Source: Owenia fusiformis
Lineage: Eukaryota > Annelida > Polychaeta > Sabellida > Oweniidae
Length of the DNA stretch: 64,000 nucleotides
Assembly (NCBI GenBank): GCA_903813345.2
Contig: CAIIXF020000005.1
Span: 2,666,001-2,730,000 of the forward strand
Direction: 5' to 3'
Part shown: positions 6,301-33,300 of the stretch, piece after piece
Layout of the letters: the number at the start of each line of letters is the position of its first letter
Position numbering within the stretch: position 1 is the first letter of the stretch
Made by a program: the position numbers and the translations under genes
Notes under the pieces: generated by a model
What the model was told of the DNA's origin: nothing
Databases searched by the model: none
The model's input: only the letters and a program-made list of their open reading frames with translations

Positions 6301-9300
6301 ATTTATTTACTTTATCGGGTTTTCTTTTGTTCCACTCTTAGAAAATAGTCGTCCAAACAAATATGGGGGTTAACATGTAAACCTATGAGGAAAACCACTG
6401 GTCCTTAACTTTTTTTGAGGGGTATAGATTGGGCCCACGAGAGAGTTGAGGAGAGGGGCGTTCAAGTTTTTTTTCTATTATGCTCTTGAATTACTCTTGA
6501 AATAGCATGGGCTCCACCACCTCTGATAGAGCCCATGGTAATAAAACGTTCTTACCTGACTTTGTCTAACTCGTTTGTAATGTTGCTGGCATGGATGAGA
6601 TTGAAGATGAGGTCATTGAAACTATCATATTCTTTTTGTGCCACCTAAAAATCCAACTCAATACGATTACTCGATCGCTCATATTCATCCATTTATTCTA
6701 ATTTATCAGAGTCTAGATCTCGCTTTATTTAAAGCTTGTGGAATTCGGTCGAAATTCTAAGTGATAATAGTCGGAGACTGTGAATCTGTGACCCCCACTA
6801 CTTGACTTCACAACTTTTCAAACAGGGGTAAGGCGTAGGTGTGTAGTGGGGGGCTTTAAGGTCTATCTTTCTATTTACCAATTCGTTCAGATTGACCTTA
6901 GTGCATAATATATGCATCCTCGTACTCACCTCATACGCCTGCTCATCAACTTCATCAAAGACTTTCAAGTTCTCACCACGGTTTACATTTATTTGAGATG
7001 TAGTGTTGGGCTTGGGGGGTGGTTCGTTCAGTTGTTCGTTGATAGGAATAGCCTGGAACTCCGGCGGAGCCTGCATTCCCTGTATGCGCTCTTTTTTCTT
7101 TACAGCATAATAATGGAATAATAACATCAATTAGAAAGACACAACATTCCAATAATGGAACATCAATTAGAAAGATACATCACACGACAACATAATAATG
7201 GAATAATGACATCAATTAGAAAGACACAACATCACATGACAACATAATAATGGAATAACAACATCAATTAGAAAGACACAACATCACGTGATAACATAAT
7301 AATGGATAATGCCATCAATTAGAAAGACACAATATCACATAACATCATCTGACAACATAATAATGGAATAATAACATCAATTAGAAAGACACAACGTCAC
7401 GTGACAACATAATAATGGAATAATGACATCAATTAGAAAGACAAAACATCACGTGACAACATAATAATGGAATAATAATAAATTCAATTAGAAAGACATA
7501 ACATCACCTGAAAACATAATAATGAAATAATAACATCAATTAGAAAGATCCAACATCACACGACAACATAATAATGGAATAATAACATCGATTAGAAAGA
7601 CACAACATCAAGTGACAAAATAATAAGATAATATAGAATACTTTACTTTGATAGCCATTTTTTATTATTTATTTATTTCATGATAATATAACAATGGAAT
7701 GTACAAAGTATATTTGTCAAATTTTGTAATTAACAATTAATAAAGATACTTGCTTACCTCAAGGACGGGCTCGTCATCTTCTTGGACGCATGCAACTCTA
7801 ACATATGGTTTTCGTTTTGGCGCAGGTTTGTTCAATGATGTATTCTGCTTTTCGCGCATAGAAAACTTTTGGAAATCTACTAGAGCCTGATCTATCTGTT
7901 TACGCTCACTAATGTTGACCTACAACATAATGAAGCACTCAATCAAAACTAGTAGACATTATAATGTCATATTTCAATGTGAACCGCACAAAACTTCGCC
8001 AAACATTGGAAAAATAATGTAGTAGAGTCTCAAATGATCGGAACAAAGTTCAAAGGATTGGTATCGATTTGGTGAACTGAATTCAACAATGTTTTCCCCT
8101 TAAACCAATTATTGAACACATTTTGTAAAAAAGACGGTCCTTTATGTAATGTTGACTGGTTGACAACAATTTAATGCTAAAATTATTTATACATATATTT
8201 TATAAAACCGTTTTTATTAACATTTTTCGTATTTAGTGCATTTGTTTTTTGTTCCTTTCTACCAATTCTTGAGAATGAAATAAAATATCTTTCCGAACCT
8301 TGTTGGAACAAAATAGCATATACAACATTTTCTTGGACCTCTCAATATTGTAGTTATACAAAGGAAAAATTAAAAAATAGATAAAAATCAAGATTAACGT
8401 TTTATTTCATTAACAAGAACGGGAATATTTGACCATATTTTTTGACCCCAGGGTGAGGAAATTGACACATTTATCTGGCCCCGGAGTAACAAATTAGACA
8501 GGCCAATAAAATTCCCCATCCAATCCCGCGTGGGGATCTCACGCAAACTTTTAAATGGTGCAAAGTATATAAAATGTTCTAAGGGTTGACCTTGAATCAG
8601 CTTAAAACGATTCGTTTTGGTAACAAAATGTCGGAACGTCGAAGGTACGATTTTTCTTTTTTCCTTATTTCACGCGTGTAGGCAGAATCCCAACGACGTT
8701 TTTTCTCACAAACGTGTATCAGCATCATATTTTTTAGAAAATGTACATATTTGCGAAAAAATAGCTCAGAAGACAACAGAATCGTCGATTTAATTCCTCA
8801 CTTAAGTTACATAAACGGTTTGGGTTAAAAGTGCAGATCTTAACTGTTTTTCGAAAAACCGTTTATGTAACTTAAGTGAGGAATTAAATCAACGATTCTG
8901 TTGTCTCCTGAACTATTTGTTCGCAAATATGTACATTTTCTTAAACATATGATACTGATACACGTTTGTGTTAAAAATGACGTGGGAATTCTGCCTACAA
9001 CGTGTGAAATAAGGAAAAAAGAAAAATCGAACCTTCGATGTTCCAACATTTTGTTACCAAAATGAGTCGTTTTGGTAACCAGCGTAATCGAGTGGATCAC
9101 CAGTGTCAAAGCATACCTTGGTAACTCCATGAGTTTCAGAAAGTTTTGGCAACGGAGGTCCATCTGTCCGTTGTTTCTCGTTGCCATTGGTGCTTATTAC
9201 AATTTTACCTGTAATTGTATTCATTGACCTCGTATTCTCCTCACGATCGCTCTTAGAATCACAAGAACTCTGTAAAAACAGAACTAAACCGATGTAACCC

Positions 9301-12300
9301 ATACCATCTTACAGAAAAACAGAAACATATTGCATGATACATAACTTAAAGCGATATGGCAGTAGCATCTCAAAATATGAAGAATGTGTCTTGATCTAGA
9401 ACTCCTAGACTCCAGCCTTGTAGTTATGGTACCTGGAATTAAAATGAAATTCCTAGGAATTCAACAACGGTTGAATAGATGTAGATTATAGATGTAGATT
9501 TTCATACCACAAAGGTTTCAATCATTCGATCCCTATAACCCGTTGCCCCAAAATAATGTATCCCAAGCTGGCCAGTTCACCAGGCCAGCTCTGCTAAAAC
9601 TTGATATGGCGTTCTTACCTCTAGTTAAAGTGTATTAATTTTTATAACGCTGAACAGAGCAATTATTGTCATATACAGTATCTGAAGCTTTGTTTCTGTA
9701 TACCTTTAAGTTTGACACCGTTATTGAAGGTTCTTTCGTCTGCTTTCTTTGTATGGAAAAATCCTCGATTCCCGTTGGAGCCTGTGGTCCTTTGATATGT
9801 TGATTGTGTACGACCTACAATATATGTGTAACCAGTTATGACAAATGGATGTTTAGATAATGCTTTTTCTCGATCTTTAATAAGAATGATGAAATATATT
9901 AATATGATATGTATACGTCCATACAAAGTAGAGAGCATGACTTCAAAAACAATTAGGTAATGTAATTCTGTTTGAAATCTATGCAAACTAAAAAAGATAT
10001 CACTCAATAAAAGCAGATGTATTGTCTTTATTTGATCTCTAGATAAACATATTCTTGTAAATGCTCAAAAAATTAAAATATTCAAAATCCATGATGTTCT
10101 AAGGGCTGTCCTTGAATCAGCTCATTGTGTCTTGCCACTTGGAAGGATGGGATGTCATTAAAATAGTATCCTTACCGCCATTCTTGATTTGACAAAAAAT
10201 ATAAAATATGCTGTTTGAAAGATACTTTTGTTTTAATACTTTTTGATACTTTTTGTTTTGATATTTTCGAACATATTTCAGTTATATGATTTATAGGGTC
10301 TCTCAGTTCTTGAAGGGTTTCGAAACTGTCATGATATATCTACAGATTTAACATCGAATAAATCAGATTAGCTTGAAATTTTCACAATTAATAGATTTTA
10401 TTGAAATGATTGCTTATAGTTTCATGAAGTAAATGCCAATTGGAAATAAAATCCCTACCAGCATAACTTTAAGATGTGATGCATGAACCTCAAAATGAGG
10501 CCTCTGGCGTTTTATAAGTAATTCGAAGCATGTAAACATTTGATGAAACATGTTGAGGGTTTCTTCCATTACCTGGAAATATTTTAAAGCGTACCTTGTC
10601 ATTACCTCCGTGACTTTCGGAAAGTTTCAGAGACAAATCTTCATTTGTTAGTTGTTTCTCGTTGTCATTGGTGTTTATAACGATTTTACCTGTATCAGTA
10701 TTCATTGACCTCGTATTTTCCTCACGATCACTCCTAGAATCACCAGAGCTCTGTAAAAACAGAGTTTAACCCATGTAACCAATACGATTTTACAGAAAAA
10801 CAGAAACATATTGCACAATAAATACCTAAAAGCTAAACAAACTTTTCAAAAAGGCCTTAGCTAAGCTTAAATGTCCTGTTTAAGAACCCCTGTTCTAGCT
10901 ATGTTCTGTTTAAGAACCCCTGTTCTAGCTATTGAAATTGGATTCTGCAATAATAGACTCGATCAACTTAAGTTCTTCTGAGAATATTAGAATTTTGGAT
11001 CTATTCCCATTTTAGGAAGCGTGTAAACCTTTGATTAGACTTGCAAAGAGTTTCCTCGTTTACAAGAAAATAATTTAAACCAAACCGTGTTAGTAACTCC
11101 GTGACTTTCAGAGAGTTTTTGCAATAAAGGTAAATCTGTTTGTTGTTTCTCGTTGCCATTGGTGTTAATTACAGTTTTACTTGTGACAGTATTCACTGAC
11201 TTTGTATGCTCTTCACGACCACTCTTAAAATCACCAGAACTCTGTAAAAACAGAATTTAACCCAAATCACTCACACAATCTTACAGAAAAACAGAAACAT
11301 ATTGCAAAATTAATATCTAAAAGCATTTAGGCATAAGCATTTCAAAATCCGAAAAATATGTCTTGATACGGAACCCCTACCACCCACACTTGCAGTTTCG
11401 GTACCTAGAATGAAAATGGAATTCCAAGGAATTTAACAACGACATTTTTTGCAAAACCACAGTTGTGACGAAGTTATATTCAATATGAGCTTTGATAGTC
11501 ATCCGAAATGGAATAAAGAGGTACAGTTAATCTCTAGAGATAGTCAGCGTTCAGGTCGAATAAATGTGTAAAATGTGATTCAGTGTAGAACAAATCGGAA
11601 GTCTCAAATCCGATCTAGATTTCTATACCACAAATGTTTCAATTATTCGACCCTTGTAACTGTTTGGCCGAAAATATATTATCCCAAGCTTGCCAGTTAA
11701 CCATATCCTGCTATGCCAAAAGTCAACATGGCATAACTTCAAAAACTATTAGGTAATGTAATTTTTTGTTAAATCTATGCAAACTAAAGTAGATATCATT
11801 CAATAATAGCATGAGTATTGTCTTTATTTGATCTATAGATAAACATATTCTTGTAAATGCTCAAAAATTTAAAATATTTAAATCCATGATGTTCTAAGGG
11901 CTGTCCTTGAATCAGCGCATTGTGTCTTGCCACTTGGAAGGATGGGATGTCATTAAAATAGTATCCATACCGCAATCCTTAATTTGACAAAAATATAAAA
12001 TATGCTGTTTGAAAGATATCTTTCGTTTCAATTACATAGAATTGATAACACCTAGAAACCTCTAAAAGTTTGGCAACCCTAACTGCGAGATTGGTTAAGC
12101 ATACTTTTGTTTTGATATTTTTGTTTTGTTTTGATATTTTCGAACATATTTCATGATTTATTGGGTCTCTCAGTTCTTGAAGGGTTTCAAAATTGTCATA
12201 ATATATCTATTAATTTAACATCGAACAATTCAGACTAGCTTGACATTTTCACAATTAATCAATTTTATTGAAATGATTGCTTATAGTTTCATGAAGTAAA

Positions 12301-15300
12301 TGCCAATTGGAAATAAAATCCCTACCAGCGTAACTTTAAGATGTGATGCATCAACCTCAAAATAAGGCCTCTGGCGTTTTATAAGTAATTCGAAGCATGT
12401 AAACATTTGATGAAACATGTTGAGGGTTTCTTCCATTACCTGGATATATTTAAATATTTAATATTTTAAAGCGTACCTTGTCATTAACTCCGTGACTTTC
12501 GGAAAGTTTCAGTGACAAATCTTCATTTGTTAGTTGTTTCTCGTTGTCATTTGTGTTTATCACGATTTTACCTGTAGCAGTATTCATTGACCTCGTATTT
12601 TCCTCACTCCTAGAATTACTCGAGCTCTGTAAAAACAGAGTTTAACCCATGTCACCAATACGATTTTACAGAAAAACAGAAACATATTGCACAATAAATA
12701 TCTAAAAGCTAAACAAACTTCTCAAAAAGGCCTTAGCTAAGTTTAAATGTCCTGTTTAAGAACCCCTGTTCTAGCTATTGAAAATGGATTCTGCAACAAG
12801 AGACACGATCAATTTAAGTTCTTCTGACTATATTCGAATTTTGGATCTATTCCCATTTCAGGAAGCGTAGTAACTCCATGACTTTCAGAGAGTTTTTGCA
12901 ATAAAGGTAAATCTGTTTGTTGTTTCTCGTTGCATTGGTGTTTATTACGATTTTACTTGTAACAGTATTCACTGGCTTTGTATTTTATTTATTTATTTTT
13001 TATTTATTTATTTATTTATTAATTATCCTCATTCATTACATTACATTTACAAAATCTTCAATCGCCAAATACATGCATGGCATTATAGAAGAATTGATGA
13101 AACTTTTGAATATAATATAAGGAGCAATGTTAACAGTAGTTTTGGGGTTGTGGTGGGGGGGGGGGTGCTTGGCGTGGGAAACAGTCAATAGAGATAAAAG
13201 ATGTTTCAGGAGGGAAAAATCATAGATTGGCTTTTATAAAGGAAGCTAGCCTGGTCATCATTTTCGAATTTAGTTCGATAGAGATTTCAGTTGAGCCATA
13301 TTTTCAGAACTTCAAGATATTTATGCTGAGAGATTTGCCTGTCAAAAATTTCAGGGATCAAGTTTTTCAGGTATTGATTAAATTCATCCCTAGCATGTGT
13401 CAAATGAGCACAGTGGAAAAAGAAGTGTTTAACTGTTTGTGGATGTCCACATGTACAATTTGGGTTATCAATATTGCTAAAGTTATGAGCATATAGTTGG
13501 GCCTTAAATAAAAAGTCGGCCCTGAATTTATTTACTATTATCTCATGGCTCCTTGTGAGGTTCAGTTTGCTGGTTGTAATGACATTTATTGGATTTTTGA
13601 AAAGCAGTTTTTGATGTTTCTTAAAATTCTGGATAGTAGATTTACTCTTTAATGTATTTGGCAGGGCTAACCAGTTGGAGATTGCAGAGGGTACCGCTGA
13701 ATTTCTGTACCGTTCAGAGCATTTTGGTACAATGAACTCATCAGTGTTACGCAAGTTTCGAGTTTCTGGTTTTTTGAACCTATCAAATATGTCATCAAGA
13801 AATTTAGGGTTAGGACCATGTACTATTTTGTACATAAAGTTATTTATAAACATTTTTCTTCTAGTGTCAAGAGATGGCCATTGAAGTAGCGTTAGTACTT
13901 TATCTGTGCTGCTCCCGTGAATACAACCTGAGCAGTAGATAGCGGCTTTATAATATAATCTATCGAGCCTTTGAAGTAGATATTTGGAAGAACTATTGTA
14001 AATGATGGTACCATAATCAAAATGGGGCAATATGAAGGAGTTTAAGATTGTCTCAAAATGACTAGATCCTATTTTGTTTTTTAGTTTTTTAAATGGATTC
14101 AACATTTTTGTTACGTTATCATAGATGTTACTTATATGGTGCTTGTGTGTTAAGCAGGGATCAAACGTGAAACCGAGGTGTTTATGGGAATCAGCTCTAA
14201 CTATTTCCATACTATTAAGATTAGATGGACTGATATCATTAATACAGTTATCAGTTCATGACTTTTTTCTGGTTTAAACTGTAGTTTCCAAGTAGTTGAC
14301 CATTGTTCAATGCTTTCTACGCTTGACTTAACAGAATCATCAACATTAGTAGGGTCTTTTGGATCAATTTTAAAATGCAAAGAGGTATCATCAGCATAGA
14401 TGTAGCACTGGCCACCCAGGTTGTCAGGAATATCATTAATGTACAGGATAAATAGAATAGGCCCTAGAATAGACCCTTGTGAAACACCATAGTTAATAAA
14501 GTTAGGATCAGAAAGTTTTGAAGATTCGCCACCTACATTAACAAAGAATGTTCTGTCATTCAGATAGGATTTGAGGACATTGAGAAGTTGACTGACTTTG
14601 TATGATCTTCACGATCACTCTTAGAATCACCAGAACTCTGTAAAACAGATCTTGACCCATGCCACTCAAACGATCTTACAAAAAACAGAAACATATCGCA
14701 CAATCAATATTCCAAAAGCATTAAGGCATTTGCATCTCAAAATCTGAAGAATATGTCTTGATACGGAACTCCTACTACCCAGACTTGTAGTTTCGGTACC
14801 TAGAATTAAAATGGAATTCCAAGGAATTTAACAACGGCATATTTTGCAAAACCACAGTGTGGACGAAGTTATATTCAATATGAGCTGTGATGGTCATTCG
14901 AGATGAAATAAAGAGATACAGTAAATCTCCAGATCGAGATAGTCAGCGTTCAGGTTGAATAATTGTGTAAAATGTAATTCAGTGTAGAAGTCTCAAATCC
15001 GTTCTATACCACAAAATGTCATAATATATCTATCAATTCAACATCGAACAAATCCGATTAGCTTGAAATTTTCACAATTAGTGCTAAGATTTTATTGAAT
15101 GATTGCTTATATTTTCATGAAGTAAATGCCAAAGAAAAATAAAATCCCTACGAGTGAAACTTTAAGATGTGATGCATCAACCTCAAAATGAGGCCTCTGG
15201 CGTTTTATAAGTAATTCGAAGCATGTTAACATTTGATGAAACATGTTGAGGGTTTCTTCCATTACCTGGAAATATTTCAAAGCGTACCTTGTCAATAACT

Positions 15301-18300
15301 CCGTGACTTTTGGAAAGTTTCAGAGACAAATCTTCATTTGTTAGTTGTTTCTCGTTGTCATTGGTGTTTATAACGATTGTACCTGTAGCAGTATTCATTG
15401 ACCTCGTATTTTCCTCACGATCACTCCTAGAATCACCAGAGCTCTGTAAAAACAGAGTTTAACCCATGTCACCAATACGAATTTACAGAAAAACAGAAAC
15501 ATATTGCACAATAAATATCTAAAAGCTAAACAAACTTCTCAAAAAGGCCTTAGCTAAGCTTAAATGTCCTGTTAAAGAACCCTTGATCTAGCTATTGAAA
15601 ATGGATTCTCCAACAAGAGACTCGATCAACTTAAGTTCTTCTGAGAATAGGATCTACTCCAATTCCAGGAAGCGTGTAAACTTTTGATTAGACTTGCTAA
15701 GAGTTTCTTCATTTACAAGAAAATATTTTAAACCATACCGTGTTAGTAACTCCGTGACTTTCAGAGAGTTTTTGTAATAAAGGTGAATCTGTTTGTTGTT
15801 TCTCGTTGCCATTGGTGTTTATTACAATTTTACTTGTAACAGTATTCACTGAGTTTGTATGCTCTTCACAATCACTCTTTGAATCACTAGAACTCTGTAA
15901 AAACAGAATTTCACCCATGCCACTCAAACGATCTTACAAAAAGCAGAAACATATTACACAATCAATATCAAAAAGCAATAGGCATTATTAGCATCTGAAT
16001 ATCTGAAGAATACGTCTTAATACGGAACTCCTACCACCCAGACTTGTAGTTTCGGTACCTAGAATTAAAATGTAATTCCAAGGAATTTAACAACGGCATA
16101 TTTTGCAAAACCACAGTGGCGAAGAAGTTATATTCAATATGAGCTATGATGGTCATTCGAGATGAAATAAAGAGGTACAGTAAATCTCCAGATCGAGATA
16201 GTCAGCGTTCAGGTTGAATAAATGTGTAAAATGTAATTCAGTGTAGAAGAAATCGGAAGTCTCAAATCCGATCTAGATTTCAATACCACAAAATGTCATG
16301 ATATATCTATCAATTCAACATCGAATAAATCCGATTAGCTTGAAATTTTCACAATTAATGCTAAGATTTTATTGAATGATTGCTTATATTTTCATGAAGT
16401 AAATGCCAATGCAAAGTAAAAATCCTACTAGTGAAACTTTAAGATGTGATGCATCAACCCCAAAATGAGACCCCTGGCGTTTTATAAGTAATTCGAAGCA
16501 TGTAAACATTTGATGAAACATGTTGAGGGTTGCTTCCATTACCTGGAAATATTTCAAAGCGTACCTTGTCATTAACTCCGTGACTTTCAGAAAGTTTCAG
16601 TGACAAATCTTCATTTGTTAGTTGTTTCTCGTTGTCATTGGTGTTTATAACGATTTTACCTGTAGCAGTATTCATTGACCTCGTATTTTCCTCACGATCA
16701 CTCCTAGAATCACTAGAGCTCTGTAAAAACAGAGTTTAACCCATGTAACCAATACGATTTTATAGAAAAACAGAAACATATTGCACAATAAATACCTAAA
16801 AGCTAAACAAACTTCTCAAAAAGGCCTTAGCTAAGCTTACAGTGTCCTGTTTAAGAACCCCTGTTCTAGCACTTGAAAATGGATTCTGCAATAAGAGACT
16901 CGATCACTTAAGTTCTTCTGACAATATTAGAATTTCGGATCTATTCCCATTTCAGGAAGCGTGTAAACTTTTGATCAGAGCAAAGAGTTTCTTCATTTAC
17001 AAGAAAATATTATATATATATCCAAAAATCAAATTAGCTTGAGGTTTTCACAATCAATAGATTTGAATGAAATGATTGCTTATAGTTTGACGAAGTAAAT
17101 GCCTATTGGAAATAATATCCATAGCGTAGCTTTAAGATGTGATGCATCAACCTAAAAATGAGTCCTCTGGCGTTTTTAAGTAATTCGAAGCGTATTAACA
17201 TTTGATGAAACGTGTTGGGTGTTTCTTCCATTACCTGGAAATATTTCAAAGCATACCTTGTTAGTAACTCCGTGACTTTCGGAAAGTTTCAGAGACAAAT
17301 CTTCATTTGTTAGTTGTTTCTCGTTGTCATTGGTGTTTATCACGATTTTACCTGTAGCAGTATTCATTGACCTCGTATTTTCCTCATAATCACTCCTAGA
17401 ATCACCAGAGCTCTGTAAAAACAGAGTTTAACCCATGTAACCAATACGATCTTACAGAAAAACAAAAATATATTGTACAAATCATATCTAAAAGCGATAT
17501 GGCAGTAGCATCTCAAAATCTGAAGAGTTGATAGGACCACAGATCAGAAGGATAGGATGTCAAGAAAATAGTATCAATACTGCAATCCTTGATTTGACGA
17601 AAATCTGAAATATGTTTTTTTGAAAGATATCTTTCGTTTCAATTACATTTGAATTGATAAAATCTAACCTCCAAAAGTTTGGCAACCCTAACTGCAAGAT
17701 TGTTTGAGCATACTTTTGTTTTGATACTTTTTGAACACCATACATACGAAAAACATTTTTGAACATATATTTCAGTTATATGACTTATTGGGTCTCTCAG
17801 TATTCGAGGGGAATCGAAACTGTCATGATTAAAGGGACTCAGTATATTTTCCCGATCCTTGAATATATCAATTCAACATCGATTAAATCAAACTAGCTTG
17901 AGGTTTTCACAATCAATAGATTTGAATGAAATGATTGCTTATAGTTTGATGAAGTAAATGCCTATTGGAAATGATATCTATAGCGTAACTTTAAGATGTG
18001 ATGCATCAACCTAAAATGAGTCCTCTGACGTTTTTAAATAATTCGAAGCATGTAAACATTTGATGAAATATGTTGGGTGTTTCTTCCATTACCTGGAAAT
18101 ATTTCAAAGCATACCTTGTTAGTAACTCCGTGACTTTCGGAAAGTTTCAGTGACAAATCTTCATTTGTTAGTTGTTTCTCGTTGTCATTGGTGTTTATAA
18201 CGATTTTACCTGTAGCAGTATTCATTGACCTCATATTTTCCTCACGATCACTCCTAGAATCACTAGAGCTCTGTAAAAACAGAGTTTAACCCATGTAACC

Positions 18301-21300
18301 AAAACGATCTTACAGAAAAACAAAAATATATTGTACAATTCATATCTAAAAGCGATATGGCAGTAGCATCTCAAAATCTGAAGAGTTGATAGGACCACAG
18401 ATCAGAAGGATAGGATGTCAAGAAAATAGTGTCAATACTGCAATCCTTGATTTGACGAAAATCTGAAATATGTTTTTTGAAAGATATCTTTCGTTTCAAT
18501 TACATTTGAATTGATAAAACCTAACCTCCAAAAGTTTGGCAACCCTAACTGCAAGATTGTTTGAGCATACTTTTGTTTTGATACTTTTTGAACACCAAAC
18601 ATACGAAAAACATTTTTGAACATATATTTCAGTTATATGACTTATTGGGTCTCTCAGTATTCGAGGGGAATCTAAACTGTCATGATTAAAGGGACTCAGT
18701 ATATTTTCCCGATCCTTGAATATATCAATTCAACATCGATCAAATCAAACTAGCTTGAGGTTTTCACAATCAATAGATTTGAATGAAATGATTGCTTATA
18801 GTTTGATGAAGTAAATGCCTATTGGAAATGATATCTATAGCGTAACTTTAAGATGTGATGCATCAACCTAAAATTACTCTTCTGACGTTTTTAAATAATT
18901 CGAAGCATGTAAACATTTGATGAAACATGTTGGGTGTTTCTTCCATTACCTGGAAATATTTCAAAGCATACCTTGTTAGTAACTCCGTGACTTTCGGAAA
19001 GTTTCAGTGACAAATCTCCCTTTGTTAGTTGTTTCTCGTTGTCATTTGTGTTTATATCGATTTTACCTGTAGCAGTATTCATTGACCTCATATTTTCCTC
19101 ACGATCACTCCTAGAATCACTAGAGCTCTGTAAAAACAGAGTTTAACCCATGTAACCAAAACGATCTTACAGAAAAACAAAAATATATTGTACAATTCAT
19201 ATCTAAAAGCGATATGGCAGTAGCATCTCAAAATCTGAAGAGTTGATAGGACCACAGATCAGAAGGATAGGATGTCAAGAAAATAGTGTCAATACTGCAA
19301 TCCTTGATTTGACGAAAATCTGAAATATGTTTTTTGAAAGATATCTTTCGTTTCAATTACATTTGAATTGATAAAACCTAACCTCCAAAAGTTTGGCAAC
19401 CCTAACTGCAAGATTGTTTGAGCATACTTTTGTTTTGATACTTTTTGAACAACATACATACGAAAAACATTTTTGAACATATATTTCAGTTATATGACTT
19501 ATTGGGTCTCTCAGTATTCGAGAGGAATCGAAACTGTCATGATTAAAGGGACTCAGTATATTTTCCCGATCCTTGAATATATCAATTCAACATCGATCAA
19601 ATCAAACTAGCTTGAGGTTTTCACAATCAATAGATTTGAATGAAATGATTGCTTATAGTTTGACGAAGTAAATGCCTATTGGAAATGATATCTATAGCGT
19701 AACGTTAAGATGAAAAATGAGTCCTTTGGCGTTTTTAAATAATTCGAAGCGTAAAAACATTTGATGAAACATGTTGGGTGTTTCTTCCATTACCTGGAAT
19801 TATTTCAAAGCATACCTTGTTAGTAACTCCGTGACTTTCGGAAAGTTTCAGTGACAAATCTCCCTTTGTTAGTTGTTTCTCGTTGTCATTGGTGTTTGTC
19901 ACGATTTTACCTGTAGCAGTATTCATTGACCTCGTATTTTCCTCACGATCACTCCTAGAATCACTAGAGCTCTGTAAAACAGAGTTAAACTTAGGTAACC
20001 AATACGATCTTACAGAAAAAAGAAACATATTGCACAATAAATATCTAAAATAAATATAAAGCTAAACAAACTTTTCAAACAGGCCTAAGTTAAGCTAAAA
20101 TAAGGAGGTTAAGATTAGCGTAAAAATATATGTGTACCTATCCCTATCCGTATTTTTGTTACGGATACGTATAGGACTATAGGTAATAGAGAGATTTCGC
20201 ACCTAGTGAAAGTACAACTTATAACGTATACTTATACTTATAGGTAAACGTACAAGGTGTTTCATAATGTGGGCTTTTCGTCAGGAAAGATCTTCTCGGA
20301 CTGTAATAAATACAGGTCAAAGGGATGCCATTTGTACTTTCTTGAATTGTAGCATGTTTAGTTGATCCAAATGTGTTTGTCTAGAATAAAATAGGCTCAT
20401 ATATAGTTCATATGTTATAGACCCATCTCTTTTCAAATTGACTTTTTGGAGATGATCGTTATGAAACACCCTGTATGTCATATGTTGAGCTACTGAATTT
20501 ACTGTTTCCAGGAATTGCTAGAACCTACTGGTTTGATTGGTGTTTCAAATTGATGGTTAAAGTATTTGATTGGATACTGTTCCCACTCAGCCAATTAATT
20601 TCAAAAAATGCTTGCGGTCAATTGTTCCACACACGTGTAGACAAATCTTTATACGGAGATCAAACTGTATACGTTATCATCTACGTAAATATACCGTTTT
20701 GTAAGTTCATTGAACTTATACTGATCATGAAAACATTGAAATAATCAACTTGTTTATGGAATGACTCACTTTAAAGAATCATGACTCACTTTAAAGGATC
20801 GTGTTTGTAATACACTACAACTACAAGGACACGGAAGCAAGCATTTAATCATAATGTGCATAATCTACACGTGCAGATAACAGTGCATTCACAGTCTCTA
20901 GTTGATGGAGCTTTTCTATAACGGGAATAGTTATGTTCCATTAAGTACAATTTAAAATTGATTTTAGTAAATATAATAGTTCGACATGACCCTTTAAACT
21001 ATACGTATACGTATAAGTTGTACTTTCACTTATGTGCGAAATCTCTCTAATGTGTATTGCAAAAGAGAGAGAAAATGGCTGATTTCATACATTAACAATA
21101 AGCAAAACTGATGAAGAATGTGTAAATTCTACAATTCCATGTAGTCCCTGATCTGGACCCTCTGAAAAAAAGTTTTGTTGTCCGGTACTTTCCCACATAA
21201 AATGCTTGTACCGTTTGAAAGAACAGACTTCCCTCTTAAAGAAAACACCTCTTCTATTGATGTAAACAGGGGCAAAAGGCACCAAAACGGGGTTAGACAA

Positions 21301-24300
21301 GGTGGCATTCTGAAGTCTCACTTTCTTGTCATCACGATTCCAGGTAAACCATCAGACGGATTTACTTCAAATTTTCACACATGTTACATGGTAAGAAGTT
21401 CTAGAGCTGATTAACTTTGCGGCGGCCATCTTGGATTTTTTTTCAGATAAATATTGTCATCGCGATTCCACAAAAACCACATAACAGATGTACTTCAAAT
21501 GTTCACACATGTTACATGGTAAAAAGTCCTAGACCTCATTATTTTTTCGGTGGCCATCTTGCATTCTGGCAGCCATCTTGGAAGTTTTAAGATAAATCTT
21601 GTCATCACGATTTCAGGAAATCCAAACGGATTTACTTCAAATTTCCACACATGTTACATGGTAAGAAAATATAGAGGTGAATAACTTTTCGGCAGCCATC
21701 TTGCATTCTGGCGGCCATCTTGGAAATTTTGGGATAAATCTTGTCATTGTGATTCCAGGAAAACAACCTAACAGATTAACTTCAAATTTTCACACATGTT
21801 ACATGGTATGAAGTTCTAGAGCTGATTAACTTTTCAGTGGCCATCTTGCATTCTGGTGGCCATTTTGGAAGGTTTATAGATAAATCTTGTAATCACGATT
21901 CCAGAAAAACTACTTCACAATTTTACTTCGAATTTTCACACATGTTACATGGTATGAAGTTCTAGAGCTGACTGACTTTTCGGTGGCCATGTTGCATTCC
22001 GTCGGCCATCTTGGAAGTTTTTAGATAAATCTTGTCATCACGATTCCATGAAAACCACGTAACAGTTTTACTTCAAATTTTGACACATGTTACATGGTAA
22101 GAAATTATAGAGCTGATTAACTTTCCGATAGCCATCTTGCATTCTGGCGGCCATCTTGGAAGTTTGTAGATAAATCTTGTCATCACGATTCCAGAAAAAC
22201 GACTTTACAGATTTGCTTCAAATTTTCACACATGTTACATGGTAAGAAGTACTACAGCTGATCAACTTTTCAGTGGCCATCTTGCATTCTGGCGGCCATC
22301 TTGTAAGTTTTTAGATAAATCTTGTAATCGCGATTCTAGGAAAACCACTCAACAGTTTTCCTTCAAATTTTTACACATGTTACATGGTAAGAAGTTATAG
22401 AGCTGATTAACTTTTAAGTAGCCATTTTGCATTCTAGCAGCCATCTTGAACGATTCCAGGAAAACTACTTAACTGATTTTCTTGAAATGTTTACACATGT
22501 TACATGGTAAGAAAGACTAGAACTGTTACAAAAACAGAGTAAACAAAGCACATGGTGAACAACTGCCCTGTCAACCCTCACGCATTAGGCGTGTTTGTCA
22601 CGCATTTGCTGGAAAAATAGAAATCACGCATCAAATTAGCGTGTATGATCAAATATCACGCATATCACGCATTTTGTTGAAATTTTTAAAATTGTTTTTT
22701 GTGAAATCGCGACACGGTAAAATACCGAACGGCGAAAAAAGCGAACGCATTCCGTTTTTTGCACGCCATTGCCGTTTATGTCACGCATTTTGTACAAAAT
22801 ATGTGTATATATCACGTTTTTGAGGTGATCCCCCCCCCCCCCGTTGACGGATTTGAACAGTGAGCGTAAGCGAGCTGGAAAATTTTTAGGTGTCCAAAAT
22901 CTGCCAGTGTTCACTGAAGCTGTCCAAAGTTTGAAGGAAGGTGTTCAACATTTGGAAGTCACTCATGTTAGATGGTCCCAAGTTGACAGCCCTGGAACAA
23001 AATCGGCCTAAAACATAGCAGTGTGGACCTGATGTCCCAGAAAGCAAGATGGTCGAAGAGTTAATCAGTTGATGAACATCTTACCATGTAAAGTGTAAAA
23101 ATTTGAGGACAATCTGTTAAAAAATAGCTCAGAAGACAACAGAATCGTCGATTTAATTCCTAACTTAAGTTACATAAAGGTTTGGGTTAAAAGTGCAGAT
23201 CTGAACTGTTTTTTTCGAAATACCGTTTATGTAACTTAAGTGAGGAATTAAATGTACTATTATATTGTCTTCTGAACTATTTGTTCGCAAATATGCATAT
23301 TTTCTTAAACAATGATACTGATACACGTTTGTGAGAAAAACGTTGTGGGAATTCTGCCTACAAAGTGTGAAATAAGGAAAAAGGAAAAATCATACCTTCG
23401 ATGTTCTCACATTTTGTTACCGAAACAAACCGTTTAGGTAACCAACATAATCGAGTGGATCACTTGTGATATACTTTAGTAGTCGTTAATAATGTTAGGG
23501 AGGATGAGTTGTAAGGCATACTATGTCATGTTAGATCATGATCTATACTACTTTTATTACAATTTACCAGTTACACTTTCTCCATGCTAGGTTCTGTTAT
23601 AACTTTTGTTCCGTTTCCTATACCGTGCTTTATACATTCACAATGGTCCCTTCCTGGTATATTTTTTTTAGGTTTTATGACTGTTAAATTCTATAGTCTT
23701 GTTAAGACCACTTTATAAACAGGTTTATTATTACTTTTATGACTGTTAAATTATATAGTCTAGTTAACACCACTTTATAAACAGGTTTATTATTACTGGT
23801 GTAACTAACACAACGAAAAAAATATAATTAATTCATTTGATTTTATATAACATGAAATTACTTTTTTCTTTTCGATAAAACATTGCTTATTAGAAATATA
23901 TTTAGTTGAAAACTTAGAGTAAACAATCAGTTCTTCTATCACAAAGTTTATTTTGGTTCAGTAGATTTTTCTACATCCTCCTAAGCAGGTGTCCAGAATC
24001 CGTACCTCCTTCTTCCCCCTGCTATAACCAATTTGGACGCGCCCGATTTAACTGAATCACGTGATCCAATAATGCGCAATGACTTATACATGATTTCTGT
24101 CGCAGTGTTGCGACAGCCAATCAGATTGCGAGTTCTTAATCGGGGAAATGCTAACTGCTTATCGCAGGGGGTAAAAAGAAAGAATTTGTTCTGGATTTTG
24201 AACCCCTGCGATCGGAGGATGATTTTTCTATACATTATTTTTATGTCACACCACTAGTGATTGGGTGACATACTGTAATAGCTTCGAACGTTTATCTTGA

Positions 24301-27300
24301 CACTGTTCAGTAGTTAATGTGTACTGTATACTCAACAAGGTGTGGTGACATTTTGCATGTTTCTGCATCGTCACTACTATTGAAAGCTTATGTTGATATT
24401 GTAGCAGTGTTTTTTAAGTTCTTTTTGTTGGTACAATTAGTTTCCAAACCCTATACTTATATCGATCTGACACACAGTTTTAGTGCAGGTTTAAGTGATT
24501 TTTGTTGATTATTAAACACAAAGAGCACATGTGTCTCGAACTCGCAAAATTGTGGTTACAGAGCCTATTCACATAGTTTGACATGCTGGTGCTCTCAACC
24601 AGCTCGTTAGTTAATATCTGACTAAGAGACAGCTTGCTTTCCCAATGACGAAACGTTATCTGCAGCTTTTATGAGTACTATAGTATCTACAACTATTTTT
24701 GATCTTATATGAGTATTGGATATCATTATTTTCATTTTTCTTCAACATGTATTTTAATGACTTCAGTATGAATGGAATGTCCCTCGGAGTTGTGGTCGTT
24801 GATGAGGAATTGGTCATGGAACGGTGTGGATGCTGTTTATTCCCATATTAGATTATTGTCTTGGGATATTCAGGTTTGATTTTTGTTTGCCAGTTTTACA
24901 CTTTACAGTTTGCTTTTCCCACTAGGTTGCTTTACACTTTTTTCCTTTCTCATTTGTCATTTTTGTTTATTAGTAAGGATATGATATGCAGGTCTCTCCT
25001 TCTGTGTGATCACCTGTCCAGAAGATAATTCAACTGCATGAAGAACATTTCGTTGACATGATGCACAGTGAAAGGTTTTCCACACATTTACATTTTCGTT
25101 TAAAAGAGCTTTAATTCCGTTATATACTCAGATCAAGGCCAATTTAGCATACATTTCGCTCTCAAAAATCGCTGTGCATAATGGATTTCAAAGAAATGTT
25201 TGATGTTTTCAATAATCTTTTTTCTTTTTGATGAAATGTAGTTATTTATTCTAAAAATTCAATCGATGTCATACACAAAATGCATTTAAGTGGAATAAAG
25301 TACAGAAGCAGAGTAAAAATATGTATTTTAGATATCACCATGTGTTAACCCATTGTAGCGCCTCTTGCCCATGTTTCTATCAATATAAAACATGATATCA
25401 TACACCAAATATGCATTTATGTCAAATTATGTGGTTTAAAATACAGAAAATAGATAACATTCTCCTTAGAATACCACCTTGTGTAACCCCACTTTACTGC
25501 CTTTTGCCCCTGTTTATAGCAATATAAAAGGTAGCATGTAACCTTCCTTGTAACATGTGTAAAAGTTTCAAGAAAATCAGTAAAGTGGTTTTCCTGGAAT
25601 CACAATGACAAGATTTATAAAAGATTTATTAAATTTGAAGTAAATCTGTCTAATGGTTTACCTGGAATCGAATGTGTTCGACCACTTAACTTCTATGTTG
25701 TTACTATTTTAAGGTTTAATGTATGATATTTGATCTAGAAATGACATAATTTTTTTTGGATAAAAACATACGTTTTCGAATTACCTATCTTCGTATCGTA
25801 AACCCTGTAACTTAGGTAAAATACCGCTTAGTACAATAACAAACTACCTATAGGTACAGGTAAATGGGTTATTTACGCTAATCTTAAACTCCATATTGTC
25901 CTGTTTAAGAACCCTTTCTTGCTCTTGAAAATGGATTCTACAATTACAGACTGGATCAAGTTCTTTTTAGAAAATTAGATTTTGGATCTATCCCCATTTC
26001 AGGAAGCGTGTAAACCTTAGATTTAATTTGCAAAGAGTTTCTTAGTTTTCATGAAAATAATTTAAACCATACCGTGTTAGTAACTCCGTGACTTTCAGAA
26101 AGTTTCGGCAATAAAGGTAAATGTGTTTGTTGTTTCTCGTTGATGAAACGTGAAAAGGGTGTATTCGTTTTTAGATGGAAATAGAGAGCCTCGATATAGG
26201 CCTACATTTTCAGACAAACTTATACTGCAACATTAACTTTTAAAAAGACGTCAACACCACTGGGGAAAAGAATTCGCAACGTACATTTCATTAGGAAAAA
26301 TTCCCTCGTTTTCTAATTATCAAGGGAATTAAACTGTTAATATCCCATCCATGGCCGATAAAATTTGTTGTTGTAATCATATTTTAAAACCTGAACTCAC
26401 GAACTACATACTTTGGCGAATATTTTACTGTGATTTGAAGGATGATAGCATATATGTATTCCAAATAACTTATATCGAAAGCTCTCTACAGTTAGGTTCA
26501 GTAAGTAAGTCAACCTTCGGAAATAAAAATCTCAAAAATCGTATATCTTTGATTTCCACAATAATTTGTGAGGTTGTTATTAAGATGATAATACACATTT
26601 TAACGTATTAATTTTGCGTACATCTCAAATCCATTTTCAACAAAGCGTTCGCGAAATAAGTATTCGCAATGATTGAGATTTGGGTGATGAAAGTATGAAG
26701 ATATACTGCTCCTTAACAAATTCCTTTGGGAACAAGATATAGAATCAAAAGCATTTTCTTCTTATTTATTCACTGATACGTGCCAACGAAGTACATATTT
26801 CTGTTTTAAATAATTTTGTAAACGTTGTTATCTACAGGTGCCATTTTTAAAGTTGAGCAACAAAATTGAACTTTTGCATTTCTAAATTGATAAATGTCAG
26901 CGTGTCAACCCTTGTTTTCCGAAGTGATATGTTTTTAAATTAACAGATGTAAGCTATAAACTCAAATAAAAATTCCAACTACCCGCTATTATTATGCACA
27001 AGACAAAATTTAAATTCCCGGGGAGCACTTTATAACACTTTGAAGGAGGATTCTTGAAAAATCGTTCGAATTTCCACAAGAGGTTTCATACATTTTCATT
27101 GCTTTCTTTGAGCCTCATCTGAAATCTCACTCAAATCCGATACCGTAATTATAAATCAAAATGAAACATTAGACTCACCAGGTTAGATGATTGAGTTAAA
27201 CTGTGGATATTTATATAATGTAAGTCGGAATGTTTTCGACAATTAATGTACACTTATGATGTATGCATTAACGTGTGACTAAATATCAATTCACGACCAT

Positions 27301-30300
27301 CATATTTGGCTTTCGAAAATTAAGTTTTTCATTTATTTATTTATTTTTATTATAGGCGATTACCGAAAACGTCAATCACATCCAAATATCTGAACGACTT
27401 CAAGTATTAACAATACAATTTTCATACATCTCGAACAAAGCAAGGTTCTTTGATCCAGCAATGTGCAGTGCATTCCGAAAGAAAAAATTAACAAATATTT
27501 ATACAATTTTCATTGAGTATGAGATAACATTCGAAATTACAAATTTCAAAATATTTGCTTCAACCAAGAATTGTAGGAACTTTAAACATGTTGGTTTTTC
27601 AAACCGTATATCCTCATTCACGTTCTTTGACAAGGATGAATCCATTTGAAAGCATGGATTTTCTTAATTATTCTTCAAAACTACCCTTGAAATATAAGTA
27701 TGTAGGATATTACAGTACAAATTGACACATCTTTGTTTGCTCCATATCATGAAAAAATAAATGCAACTGCAACTTACCATCTGTCATTATTCGAAAGCAG
27801 AAAGTTCATTTTATATGTAAACAAGAAAAAATACACCTTTTAAAGTAATTCAGAAGTTTAGGTGAATATTTATCCTATAAATAGGTTTTAATAGGTATAC
27901 TGATTATAAGCGTTCATGCATGGAGTGGGTTGGCTCACGGCCAGGCCAGATCAATTGAATTCATTCAGTCAAAACATGATCGATTGAGCAGGACGCTTCG
28001 GATTTTATATAGTCAATTTTATACGTTTTAATTATTTATTACAAATTATGGCTTTACAAGACACACAAGAACAAGGTAGACGCTGCACACAATGCAAGGA
28101 GCTAGTTCGTGGACATAAAGGTCCCATAGGACCAAAATGTTCAAACTTAGACGTGAAAGTCGAGGCCGAGCTGCCACGCCCAGAACCGGTTTCCACGGCC
28201 GATACAAACCAAGACATTCCAGGATGGCAACTTGCTATGATGGAAGTGTCCCAACAGATATCTGGACTAGTTGCGGTAACAAAGGACTTGCAAGTCGAAC
28301 AAAATAACATGAGGGAACAAGTTGTGCACATATCAAAAGAATTGGGGGAGATAAAAATTCAAACTCAGCGACAAGCCACACCCATTGAACAAAGATCGAC
28401 CGCCGTGGATCAAACATCAGCCGGGGAACAGAACTCCATCCCCGATACGGCAACAGGAACACATGACACGACAGACGTATTTAACGTCCCGGTTCCAGAA
28501 AAAGTCATCAAAACCATAAAGAACGGTGAGTTTGTTCAAATGATTGACATTTTACCCGCCAATTTACTGCACGACCATCATGAAAATCCCGATCCGATAT
28601 TGTCACTTGAAAATGGCCAACTGCGACAAAAACAAACCAGAAAAATCAAAATAATTGAAAATTTCTCCCAATGGCTGAGCGCCTGGAATATTTTCGAGGC
28701 TATCATTGTACAAAATGCACCACACACCTATCCTGGATTATGTACATATCGAAATATAATCCAAGAAGCCGACGCCAAGTTCAAGTGGAACGCCGTCAAC
28801 GCCTATGACGTCAAATATAGAAGCAAATTATCACAAACAAAAAGTCAACAATTTGGGAATATCGACACACAACTATACGTGACAACGTTCGACTCGACAG
28901 CTGTGAAGCAGCACATCATCAAATGTTATCGCTGTGCAGGAGATCATAAGGTCTCCAATTGCCCGTTTCAAGCGGGGACCACGGTGGCGACGTCGTCGGC
29001 GCCGTCTACGACAACAACAACATACAGCAAGGATAAGATTAAAAACGAAATCTGCAATAAATATCAACATGGAGAATGTAAATATGGATCACAGTGCTTC
29101 AGAATTCACAAATGCCAAGGTTGCGGGGCAAGTGATATCCCAAAATACAAATGTAAAAAGTGCATTGGAGGAAATTAAGCCCTACAAACCATTGTGCCCA
29201 ATAGCTTTAGCCCATGGCTTAAGAAATCACCCTGACAAAAATTTTGTAAATTATATTGTTGAAAATGCTACACATGGTGTTAAACTTGGGTACAATGGTC
29301 CAAGGGAATCCCGTATTCATGGAAACTGGAAATCAGCATTAGATAATAGTGAAGCCATACAACAAAATATCGATAAAGAAATGTCCAAAGGAAGGAAAGT
29401 AGCATTCAGTTCTATACCGTGTGAAAAGTACGTCGGATCTCCGATGGGTGCATATGCAAAAAAGCACTCGAACCCTACAAAATATCGCATTATACACGAC
29501 CTCTCATGGCCCCCAGGGAAATCCGTGAACGAATTTATTTCCAAAGAAGAATATGGATGCCATTACATAAGTATCGATACTGCAATTAATTTAGTGAAAC
29601 AATGTGGAAGATCAGCGCTAATGAGCAAGCTTGATTTAGCTGACGCGTTTAAATTTATTCCAGTACATAAATCTGATTGGGAACTCCTAGGAACAACGTG
29701 GGAAACACGAAATGACATCACGGGCGAAAACGTCACGACATATTATATTGACTTAGTTCTACCGTTTGGTGCACGCAGTTCGCCAAAACTGTTTAGCGAA
29801 TTTGCAGATGCCTTGGAATTTATAATGCGACAAAATGGTGCAACAGTATGTCCCCATTATTTAGATGATTACTTCACATGTGGACCTAGAAACAGTGACG
29901 TATGTAAGAACAATCTCGATATAATGGTACAGACATGTGCCGACGTTGGCTTCAGCATCAATCCGTCGAAACTCGTACAACCGTGCACCTCCATAGAATT
30001 TCTTGGACTTATCATAGATTCGAACAAATTTGAAATCCAAATTCCGCAAGATAAGCTCCAAGACATCACAACAGATTTGAAAAAATGGCTCGTCAGGAAA
30101 AGAGCATCAAAGCGACAAATATTGTCTCTAATAGGTAAACTGACGTTCATTTGCCGAGTCATATACGCAGGAAAAACGTTCTTGAGAAGGATTATTGATC
30201 TTTCTACAACGTTAAAACACTTACATCACAAGATGAAAATCAGCAATTCTTTCAGATCGGACATATCTTGGTGGTTAAGCCACCTACCCTCATGGGGAGG

Positions 30301-33300
30301 CTCACGGCCAGGCCAGATCAATTGAATTCATTCAGTCAAAACATGATCGACCACACCCACCCACCCATTATGATTTAATTGTATGTATATACGTATTATA
30401 ATTGTATTTTATAAGAAAACACAAATACCCCAAAAAACAAAAATTTATAATTGATTCAAGTTATTTAATTTTACTTAGGGCGGTTATTATTTTATAAAAT
30501 AAGAATTGGAATAAATGATCGTCCATTTTAGCCCAACACGACTTGTTCTGTCATTTGATTGATTATTGCGTTGGTGATTAAAGAAAAACTATTAACCATA
30601 TTTTAAAGATTGCTTCACCAGTATGTAACAGAACATCAAAATTATCATTTACACGTTTGCTGATAGGTATATTAAAAATAATAAACCAGAGGTTTACTTC
30701 AATTGTGGCACCATTGATTCTCAGAAAATATTGATGAACATAGGAATTTCGAATGTTCACTTAGTTACTGAACCTGACTGCTTAGTATTTCAAAGTATAC
30801 CTTGTAAGTAACTCCGCGACTTTCGGAAAGTTCCGGCAACGAAGGTCCATCTGTTCGTTGTTTCTCTTTGCCATTGGTGTTTATTATGATTTTACCTGTA
30901 TTTGTATTCATTGACCTTGTATTCTCCTCACGACCACTTTTAGAATCAATAGAACTCTGTAAAAACGGAATTTAACCCATGTAACCCATAAAAAACAGAA
31001 ACATATTGCACAATACATATCTAAAAGCGATATGGCAGTAGCATCTCAAAATCTGAAGAATGTGTTAGTGTGACTAGTTACCCCCCAAAGATTATCCCAA
31101 CCTGGCCAGTTCACCTCAGACGCTAGTTCAACGTCGTTAAACTCAATAACGGCGTTCTTTACTATTAGGAATTTTTTCTTGGGGCCATTATTGAGTTTAA
31201 CCTCCATGCTATTCTTTCCTTTGATGCAAGTTGTGGATCTATCGAAACCACTTTTCCTCGCTAATATGACACTGATACTTAACAATAATATAAAACCACA
31301 TTTCATCAGGCGATTTCACATAATATTATTGTGTTAAATGTTCATTTTTAATCGTAAAATGAGTCTTATTCTTACCAATTTATGAGACGAATATTTCAAC
31401 CGGCAATGTCTGTCTGTGCGTCGCCAAAGTAAACTTGGTCAGCGAAACGAAATTGTTCTTCAATATTGATATTTATAATAACCATCCAGTATGACACGAA
31501 TCTTTGCTTTATTCAAACAGCGCGTGTATTCACCCAAGTTTACTCTATTGTTATTTATAAAAAACTTTAAAAAGCAATACTCGCAACATTATTGATGCAT
31601 TTGATTACTGGTAATTTCAGCTCAAAGAAATATAGATGTCATTGATTGTGCTAGATTGTGATTGTGTTGAGGTTCCATATCCATCCGCCAAAAGGTATCA
31701 ATATCCATCCGCCCTATATAGTCCATTTAAAAACTTGTGGTTTTGTTCTAAATAACGCCATAGTTGGCTTCTAGGGTACCTAGTATCACTGGCATGTAGC
31801 GGCCCTGATATCGATAAATTCTACACGCAATATAACCCGATTTTAGATGCTTGGTTAAAACTTTACACGAAAAAGCCTCGATATCCGGGCATTTATTCTT
31901 ACACTGAACTGAAAATAGCATCGTCTAAACGTGTATGTCTTGGCTTCCGGGTAAGTTTATCAACATTTATACTCAATTGAAAGAGCAGTCGTGCTTATAT
32001 CGTGTACCAGTTTGATTGTTTTATATGTGTGTGTATTTATAATATGATAGTCTAGTAATACCGTGTCGTTAGAACAAGTGCTAGATATCGAACTGATGAC
32101 CTGAAATTAGATTATTGGACTGATCGCGCATCTGATATTAGATGATTAATTTGCATTGAATCTGATATTAACTTGCAACCCAATACTACAGTAAATACCA
32201 TGACTTTACATTAGAATGATAACACGGCCTCATATTCTAATTCATTATACGTCCATTGCAGGCCAAAAATGTTTCAATGGGGATATTGTGTAATGCACAC
32301 GAGAATACATTCGATTCGTATATATTGACACCCCAGTTGTCCGAAACCCAGTTGTCCGAAACCCCGGGGGGTTCACTATATATAAACCTTGATGGGGATC
32401 CTCGGCGCATGTGGGGTACCTTTTTCAACGTTTGGTATGGCAATGGACCCATATTTTAGGATTTGGTATGGGAATGCCCGGAAATTTCTGACTTTTGAGG
32501 TATGGCAATGGTCGAACTTTTGCTCTTCTGGTATGAGAATGGTTGTTGTAGATACGTTACCTAACATTCGTGGTATGGCATTGGTCCAGTAGTTGCAAAT
32601 TTGAAGTTGTTTTGGATCGTTTCTCGAAGTATCTTCTTTTCCAGGGCCTTCTTCAACTTTTGAATTTTAGCCCTTTTCCCGGGAAATGAGGACCAATCAT
32701 AGGCTTTGATGAAGTCTCGCAAGATTTTTTGTGATTTCAATACAAAACTTGCCGCCAAGAAAAATGGACGCTCGATTCGAAAAGTGGTTGATTTCCAACT
32801 ATTGATATTTGATATTTGGACATTTGGTATGGCATTGGTCCTACATTTTGACATTTGGTATGGTATTGGTCCCATAATTGGACATTTGGTATGGCATTGG
32901 TCCTATATTTGGACATTTGGTATGGCCTTTGGGCGTTATTTTGGTTGGTATGGGAACATATTGAAATTTGACAGATTGGTATGGGAACATATTGATATTT
33001 GAGGCTTCAGCCTAGGACCCCCGTCGAGTTTTATATACAGTGAACCCCCCGGGTCCGAAACCCAGTTGTCCGAAACCCAATTCCCCGAAACCCAGTTGTC
33101 CGAAACCCATTACTCCGAAAAATAAAGTCATAATTTACCAGAGAAAGGGGGGGGGGGCGTAGCTTACGTAAGCTTACGTCAGTTTCATGCCATGTATTTG
33201 GCCAAATTAATGGCATGGACGCATTCTGATACTCATAGATCTCTCTCTCTCACTTTGAATTGCATCCATTGTATGGCGTTACCGGCAGGAACGGGAGATT

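Follow-up and report, generated by a model that had tools for sequence, protein, structure and literature searches.

A tandem array of twelve intact, symmetric exons may encode an adjustable linker in a KY-like gene of the annelid Owenia fusiformis

Tandem exon-intron repeat arrays are known from several systems, which we outline here from parts of the respective papers. In the SmPoMuc mucins of Schistosoma mansoni, an exon and its flanking introns are repeated in tandem and encode peptide repeats whose number varies among cDNAs (PMC2576457, in part), while the PEVK region of titin is built from numerous short and very repetitive exons, with an abundance of alternatively spliced isoforms and with variation in length (PMC6469411, in part). 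Dscam and other mutually exclusive arrays are large tandem series of exons flanked by constitutive ones, and their neighbouring introns are similar (PMC6071210, in part), and tandem exon arrays are also treated in a further paper on exon clusters (PMC9013439, in part). Here we describe a 64,000-nt stretch of the genome of Owenia fusiformis (assembly GCA_903813345.2, contig CAIIXF020000005.1, positions 2,666,001 to 2,730,000 of the forward strand; hereafter the window), in which a KY-like gene carries a tandem array of exons that may lengthen or shorten a linker in front of its transglutaminase-like core.

Akin to the SmPoMuc genes, in which units of ~1 kb add peptide repeats that separate the N-terminus from a constant part, the array consists of an exon together with its flanking introns (~0.86 kb in the youngest units) and lies between a putative N-terminal exon and a constant core; the differences are that SmPoMuc encodes 9-aa repeats in a mucin with a signal peptide rather than 52-aa repeats in a KY-like protein, and that variation in unit number was seen there in cDNA, whereas the present array is known from genomic DNA alone (PMC2576457, in part). 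With titin PEVK it shares the many short, repetitive exons, in another protein and another sequence, and splicing is documented for titin while the array was read from the genome (PMC6469411, in part). It resembles the Dscam-type arrays in its layout and in its similar neighbouring introns; choice there is made by docking-selector pairing, whereas a scan with 8 of the 12 upstream elements found no docking site here and the exon lengths enforce no exclusion (PMC6071210, in part).

A 66-nt core (repeat family D6) recurs 14 times on the minus strand at 9117-30956 of the window, as a preliminary description of this DNA had stated. Twelve of the 14 copies are intact exons, bounded by a GT donor and by an acceptor that ends in TTTTACAG, and they measure 156 nt (n = 10), 153 nt (n = 1, at 9117) or 150 nt (n = 1, at 12477) (Table 1). 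Frame 0 is the sole open frame in all twelve, stops interrupting both others, and the exons are symmetric, with phase 0 at both ends and lengths divisible by three, so that any subset joins in frame. The same description had counted twelve open copies with AG/GT signals and phase 0 at both ends; this count was reproduced, and the flanking exons of the gene share phase 0. The intact exons fall into three subfamilies, type A (n = 8), type B (n = 2) and type C (n = 2, the outermost two). These are tandem homologous exons on one strand of one gene, exon status being assigned from splice signals and phase. A 52-aa query from the repeat exon found 12 places in the whole genome (498 Mb, 525 contigs) and a 300-nt repeat query found 15, all of them in the array (12/12 and 15/15, respectively); both searches score the best candidates only, and distant relatives of the repeat exon could escape them. 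An origin of the exon from a mobile element is unsupported, the exon and its intronic element being found only in the array genome-wide.

The identification of the host gene as KY-like is upheld by a match of its Ig-like_KY domains to PF23265 (256.5 bits in three stretches, the best of 28 genome matches) and by a match of the joined core exons to PF01841 (45 bits, cut-off 23); an exon-by-exon genome search for the transglutaminase-like core did not list this locus. The linker layout proposed earlier stands in so far as an in-frame exon array lies between a Cys-rich exon beginning MGN and the core. We provisionally assign this MGNICCCC exon to the gene on account of its strand and its phase, and because paralogue L050 likewise starts with MGN; its sequence has no other match in the genome, and its motif is presumably of the myristoylation/palmitoylation type, a predicted lipidation. 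If it does belong to the gene, it would splice to the VNISERK exon that follows the array either directly or via any set of repeat exons, without frameshift. Candidate catalytic His and Asp residues of the core were found by eye in HTWNAVFIDGQWYLADCNW, and the usual position of the catalytic Cys, located by eye, reads GNVTYS (~5202-5055, minus strand). Judged in the same manner, paralogues L049 and L050 likewise seem to be without the usual catalytic Cys. The VNISERK and ERIQGMQ exons are weakly similar (37-42%; the best E, 0.001 in a small database, was obtained with an L049 exon) and possibly go back to an older exon duplication, and a stretch of the ERIQGMQ exon is 54% identical to L049.

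Table 1. Exons, relics and other features of the KY-like gene, in coordinates of the window.
Feature	Coordinates	Strand	Basis
Putative first coding exon, MGNICCCC..., 87 aa, ends in phase 0 (GAG/gtacgt)	40900..41160	-	
Repeat exon type C, 52 aa, outermost 5' copy	30801..30956	-	splice-site cut and open frame
Relic type B copy, 5' part missing	26073..26141	-	
Repeat exon type A, 52 aa	19816..19971	-	splice-site cut and open frame
Repeat exon type A, 52 aa	18972..19127	-	splice-site cut and open frame
Repeat exon type A, 52 aa	18115..18270	-	splice-site cut and open frame
Example of the conserved intronic element, polypyrimidine tract included	17413..17520	-	upstream of repeat exon
Repeat exon type A, 52 aa	17257..17412	-	splice-site cut and open frame
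Repeat exon type A, 52 aa	16565..16720	-	splice-site cut and open frame
Repeat exon type B, 52 aa	15739..15894	-	splice-site cut and open frame
Repeat exon type A, 52 aa	15288..15443	-	splice-site cut and open frame
Relic type B copy, split by a long interspersed nuclear element (LINE); 5' part 14587-14637, 3' part 12869-12984	12869..14637	-	
Repeat exon type A, 50 aa	12477..12626	-	splice-site cut and open frame
Repeat exon type B, 52 aa, weakest donor (ACG/GTTTGG)	11086..11241	-	splice-site cut and U1 pairing
Repeat exon type A, 52 aa	10595..10750	-	splice-site cut and open frame
Repeat exon type C, 51 aa, outermost 3' copy	9117..9269	-	splice-site cut and open frame
Next exon 3' of the array, VNISERK..., 54 aa, phase 0-0	7758..7919	-	
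Following exon, ERIQGMQ..., 54 aa or slightly more, ends in phase 0	6930..7091	-	
Transglutaminase-like core exons (6652-6555, ~5202-5055, ~4531-4355; ends approximate)	4355..6652	-	
Open frame, 526 aa, three Ig-like_KY domains	1822..3399	-	PF23265

The flanking intron was duplicated along with the exon, the stretch 17616-17915 recurring twice at 99%. Because exon-plus-intron units were duplicated as such, the equal phase and the 3n length of the copies are largely inherited. Of the earlier claim that the lengths change by whole codons because the frame is selected, the observation holds, the only two internal length changes among the 12 aligned exons being -3 and -6 nt; the explanation stands on weaker ground, since the frame came with the duplication, and two changes are too few for an argument. 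The exons at 17257, 18115 and 18972 are of type A but have type-C-like 5' flanks (17413-17532, 18271-18390 and 19128-19247, minus strand), which suggests exchange between copies, and the type C pair has only ~118 nt in common before the exon, with a likeness that ends just past the donor.

Signs of selection on the coding sequence were sought in the 12 intact copies, to which all codon fits, simulations, divergence tables and the structure alignment are confined, the two broken copies being left out. Our own codon-model fit, whose likelihoods agree with IQ-TREE (GY free -665.14, GY with omega 1 -668.02, MG free -650.40), gave an omega of 0.62 (MG) or 0.56 (GY) for the repeat exons, and twice the difference in log-likelihood from omega 1 was 4.3 (MG), 4.1 (MG with assumed genomic base frequencies) and 5.8 (GY). 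For comparison, the Ig-domain exon gave 0.27 against paralogue L049 by the same method (427 codons). When two omegas were allowed, the recent type-A branches took 0.82 and the deeper branches 0.55, and the outcome is mixed with respect to the preliminary description, which had named a dN/dS near 1 across copies as evidence against its proposal: the overall value lies below 1, but the recent type-A branches come closer to it. Neutral simulation on the fitted tree, which ignores exchange between copies, left all 12 frames open in 1.2-3.6% of cases at full scale and in 4.9-7.8% at 0.75, and left both frame and splice dinucleotides intact in 12/12 copies with a P of 0-0.0017 at full scale and 0.0033-0.0060 at 0.75; on average, 2.3-2.7 of 12 exons were still usable at full scale, as opposed to the 12 seen. 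Chance retention of all 12 exons is unlikely. Between the older type-A groups, the exons differ by 2.6-7.1% and the downstream introns by 10-18%. We read these comparisons as pointing to weak to moderate constraint on the older copies, with none yet detectable on the young ones.

The splicing signals of the array have features of their own. A genome search with a 108-nt probe for the conserved intronic element gave 13 matches, none of them outside the array: they stand before the 12 intact exons and before the LINE-split copy. Between subfamilies, the ~95 intronic nt before the acceptor are conserved about like the exon, or more so (intronic versus exonic divergence of 12.5 vs 18.6% for A-C, 17.0 vs 21.7% for A-B and 19.5 vs 19.0% for B-C), and the corresponding values within the type C pair are 9.5 vs 12.4%. 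Long pyrimidine tracts precede the acceptors. The donors of all 12 repeat exons pair with U1 at -4.1 to -5.7 kcal/mol, whereas nine other KY donors (six from this gene and three from L049, whose His/Asp exon donor is omitted) pair at -8.0 to -12.4 kcal/mol, U1 pairing being a rough measure. Weak donors and a conserved adjacent intron are a tendency of skippable exons, and the repeat exons show the donor pattern of such exons, since each of the 12 is weaker versus U1 than the nine others.

The encoded unit consists to 61-71% of S/T/N/E/K/D/Q, and the charge-hydropathy line places all 12 units with disordered chains. The best AlphaFold model of the unit has three strands and a helix with a mean predicted local distance difference test (pLDDT) score of 72.5, the other four models scoring 54.7-60.6; the unit may be disordered judging by its composition, yet the best predicted model is folded. 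None of the 12 repeat exons has a match in Pfam, and none of the 461 PDB matches listed for the unit has an E of 0.001 or better.

The reading that we favour, with about even confidence, is that the repeat exons are additive and skippable and lie in a linker, in the manner of SmPoMuc or of titin PEVK, alternative splicing being deduced from the features above. A KY-like gene would have gained, within the linker that joins its N-terminal exon to its transglutaminase-like/Ig-like core, an orphan 52-aa phase 0-0 exon, and duplication of exon plus intron would have led to 14 copies, 12 of them still usable. As any subset is in frame, additive use would supply anything from none to 12 units of polar repeat, or 0 to 621 residues; inclusion would be tuned by the weak donors and by the conserved element before each acceptor, and the linker would govern how far a putative membrane-anchored N-terminus is from the core, or how many binding sites lie between them. 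Were all twelve exons always included, the protein would instead have a fixed repeat region of ~621 residues and nothing would be alternative. The pyrimidine tracts, the open frame, the ordinary intron lengths and the lack of regulatory RNA pairing in our docking scans are as expected from such constitutive inclusion, but the poorer pairing of all 12 donors with U1, together with intronic conservation that extends ~95 nt between subfamilies, seemingly beyond what a plain acceptor needs, makes it unlikely in our view. Choice of one exon out of twelve through docking-selector RNA pairing, as in Dscam, strikes us as very improbable. The selectors of Dscam exon 6 lie upstream of the variant exons, as does the conserved element before each copy here; however, choice among eight near-identical type-A copies would alter little, and a duplex search with 8 of the 12 upstream elements, in which pseudoknots and local structure lie outside the model, found no common Dscam-like docking site complementary to them (best of 745 windows, z -3.6; the score of the left intron was reached by 3 of 19 shuffles and that of the right intron by 96 of 99). 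Short introns, frameshift and RNA pairing are the usual ways of enforcing mutual exclusion, and the first two are ruled out because the 11 array introns span 295-10829 nt, thus at least 295 nt, and the exon lengths are all 3n.

It is also conceivable that most of the array is genomic noise, a single exon having been in use at one time and the extra copies being young duplicates that are rarely or never spliced in and are starting to decay. The recent copies are near neutral, both in the omega of 0.82 on recent type-A branches and in the three youngest copies, where exon divergence (2.6-3.2%) is about that of the intron (1.9-3.3%); two of the 14 copies are already broken, and the donors are weak. 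These facts would suit noise, and the near-neutrality and the decay weigh against additive use, as do several others: the two-omega fit hardly improves on one omega (log-likelihood -650.08 vs -650.40), retention of the frame alone arises by chance in 12-19% of cases at half-scale branch lengths, the shared phase and the weak donors stem in part from one ancestor, so that the 12 exons are not independent, the exon is more conserved than the upstream element within type A (4.7 vs 7.4%) and type B (7.1 vs 14.0%), and the nearest paralogue has no repeat exon in the 18 kb read. What makes noise doubtful to us is that the neutral simulation leaves so few exons usable, as well as the lower divergence of the older type-A exons than of their downstream introns, although exchange between copies could do likewise. 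Returning to additive, skippable exons, we advance only tentatively the more specific proposal that splicing adjusts the linker by including up to 12 closely similar exons in varying combinations under the control of one co-duplicated intronic element, as an adjustable spacer that has recently expanded and possibly varies in copy number between individuals.

Other KY-like genes of this animal differ in the same place. The 28 matches to PF23265 lie in about eleven places, the present locus included, and the 5' sides were read at four of the ten others, none of them surely complete, so the stretches named here are candidates as to exon status. Upstream of the KY core, L049 and L051 have proline-rich and GQYAPGQQ stretches and L052 has a charged stretch. 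L050 begins MGNGASN, followed in one open frame upstream of the core by 250 residues of which 66% are S/T/N/E/K/D/Q; this paralogue matches the array gene in layout but has no array, so that a polar linker behind an MGN start is nothing unusual in this animal. The repeat exon was not found in the 5' regions read of L049-L051 nor, in the best-candidate search of the genome, anywhere outside the array. That the four paralogues read have different low-complexity or repeat linkers at this point accords with the reading that we favour. The KY-like genes of this animal thus seem at liberty to vary the region ahead of the core, and in the array gene exon duplication is the form that this variation has taken. 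As separate observations, an open frame with tandem GQYAPGQQ repeats lies upstream of the KY core at 1408-1827 of L051 (minus strand), and tandem peptide repeats (QIMAHQSAHVP, PQSNQQQAQSQ) occur in one open frame before the KY core at 3210-4013 of L053 (plus strand).

One of the two decayed copies is split by a LINE fragment (12985-14608, minus strand, the gene's own orientation) that sits inside the repeat exon, ends in TAAA repeats and contains a piece of reverse transcriptase (50 bits, in 14204-14608). The sequence ATACAAAG(T/C)CAGT flanks it on both sides as a 13-nt target duplication with one mismatch, identified by eye (8 letters exact by script), and the split copy is further damaged by a frameshift and by the loss of its donor. 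A ~145-nt repeat with GGCGGCCATCTTG is present nine times in tandem at 21324-22525, within the long gap of the array, and a partial inverted copy of it lies at 25546-25618. Retroelement open reading frames are present on the plus strand, antisense to the KY-like gene, at 27988-30322, 34956-36534 and 50662-54342, with reverse transcriptase domains at 28907-30322, 34956-35786 and 50662-54342; the first two groups are intronic in the gene and the third lies upstream of the putative first exon.

Like the KY/hillarin family as a whole (PF23265, PF01841), the gene encodes a transglutaminase-like core followed by Ig-like_KY domains; it differs in its N-terminal array of an exon that was found neither elsewhere in the genome nor in the four paralogue 5' sides. 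The preliminary description knew of no such array in KY/hillarin genes, and we likewise found no report in the open-access literature searched, where papers mentioning hillarin did not deal with exon arrays judging by title or opening of the abstract, an invertebrate paper naming kyphoscoliosis peptidase was on abalone haemocytes, kyphoscoliosis peptidase did not occur together with exon duplication, and broader searches had nothing on KY genes among the entries listed. The array thus appears unreported for the KY family within these open-access searches, tandem exon-intron repeat arrays being known elsewhere. Arrays of a dozen usable exons seem uncommon, and among the mutually exclusive clusters of the fly that one paper lists, only Dscam has at least 12 exons (PMC6071210, in part). 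With copies of differing age, decayed copies and an intronic stretch that travels with the exon, the locus offers a clean case for the origin of an exon array and the onset of selection on it. The specific muscle role of the KY family had not been established (PMC6078408, in part); if our reading is true, this would be the first adjustable linker in the family known to us.

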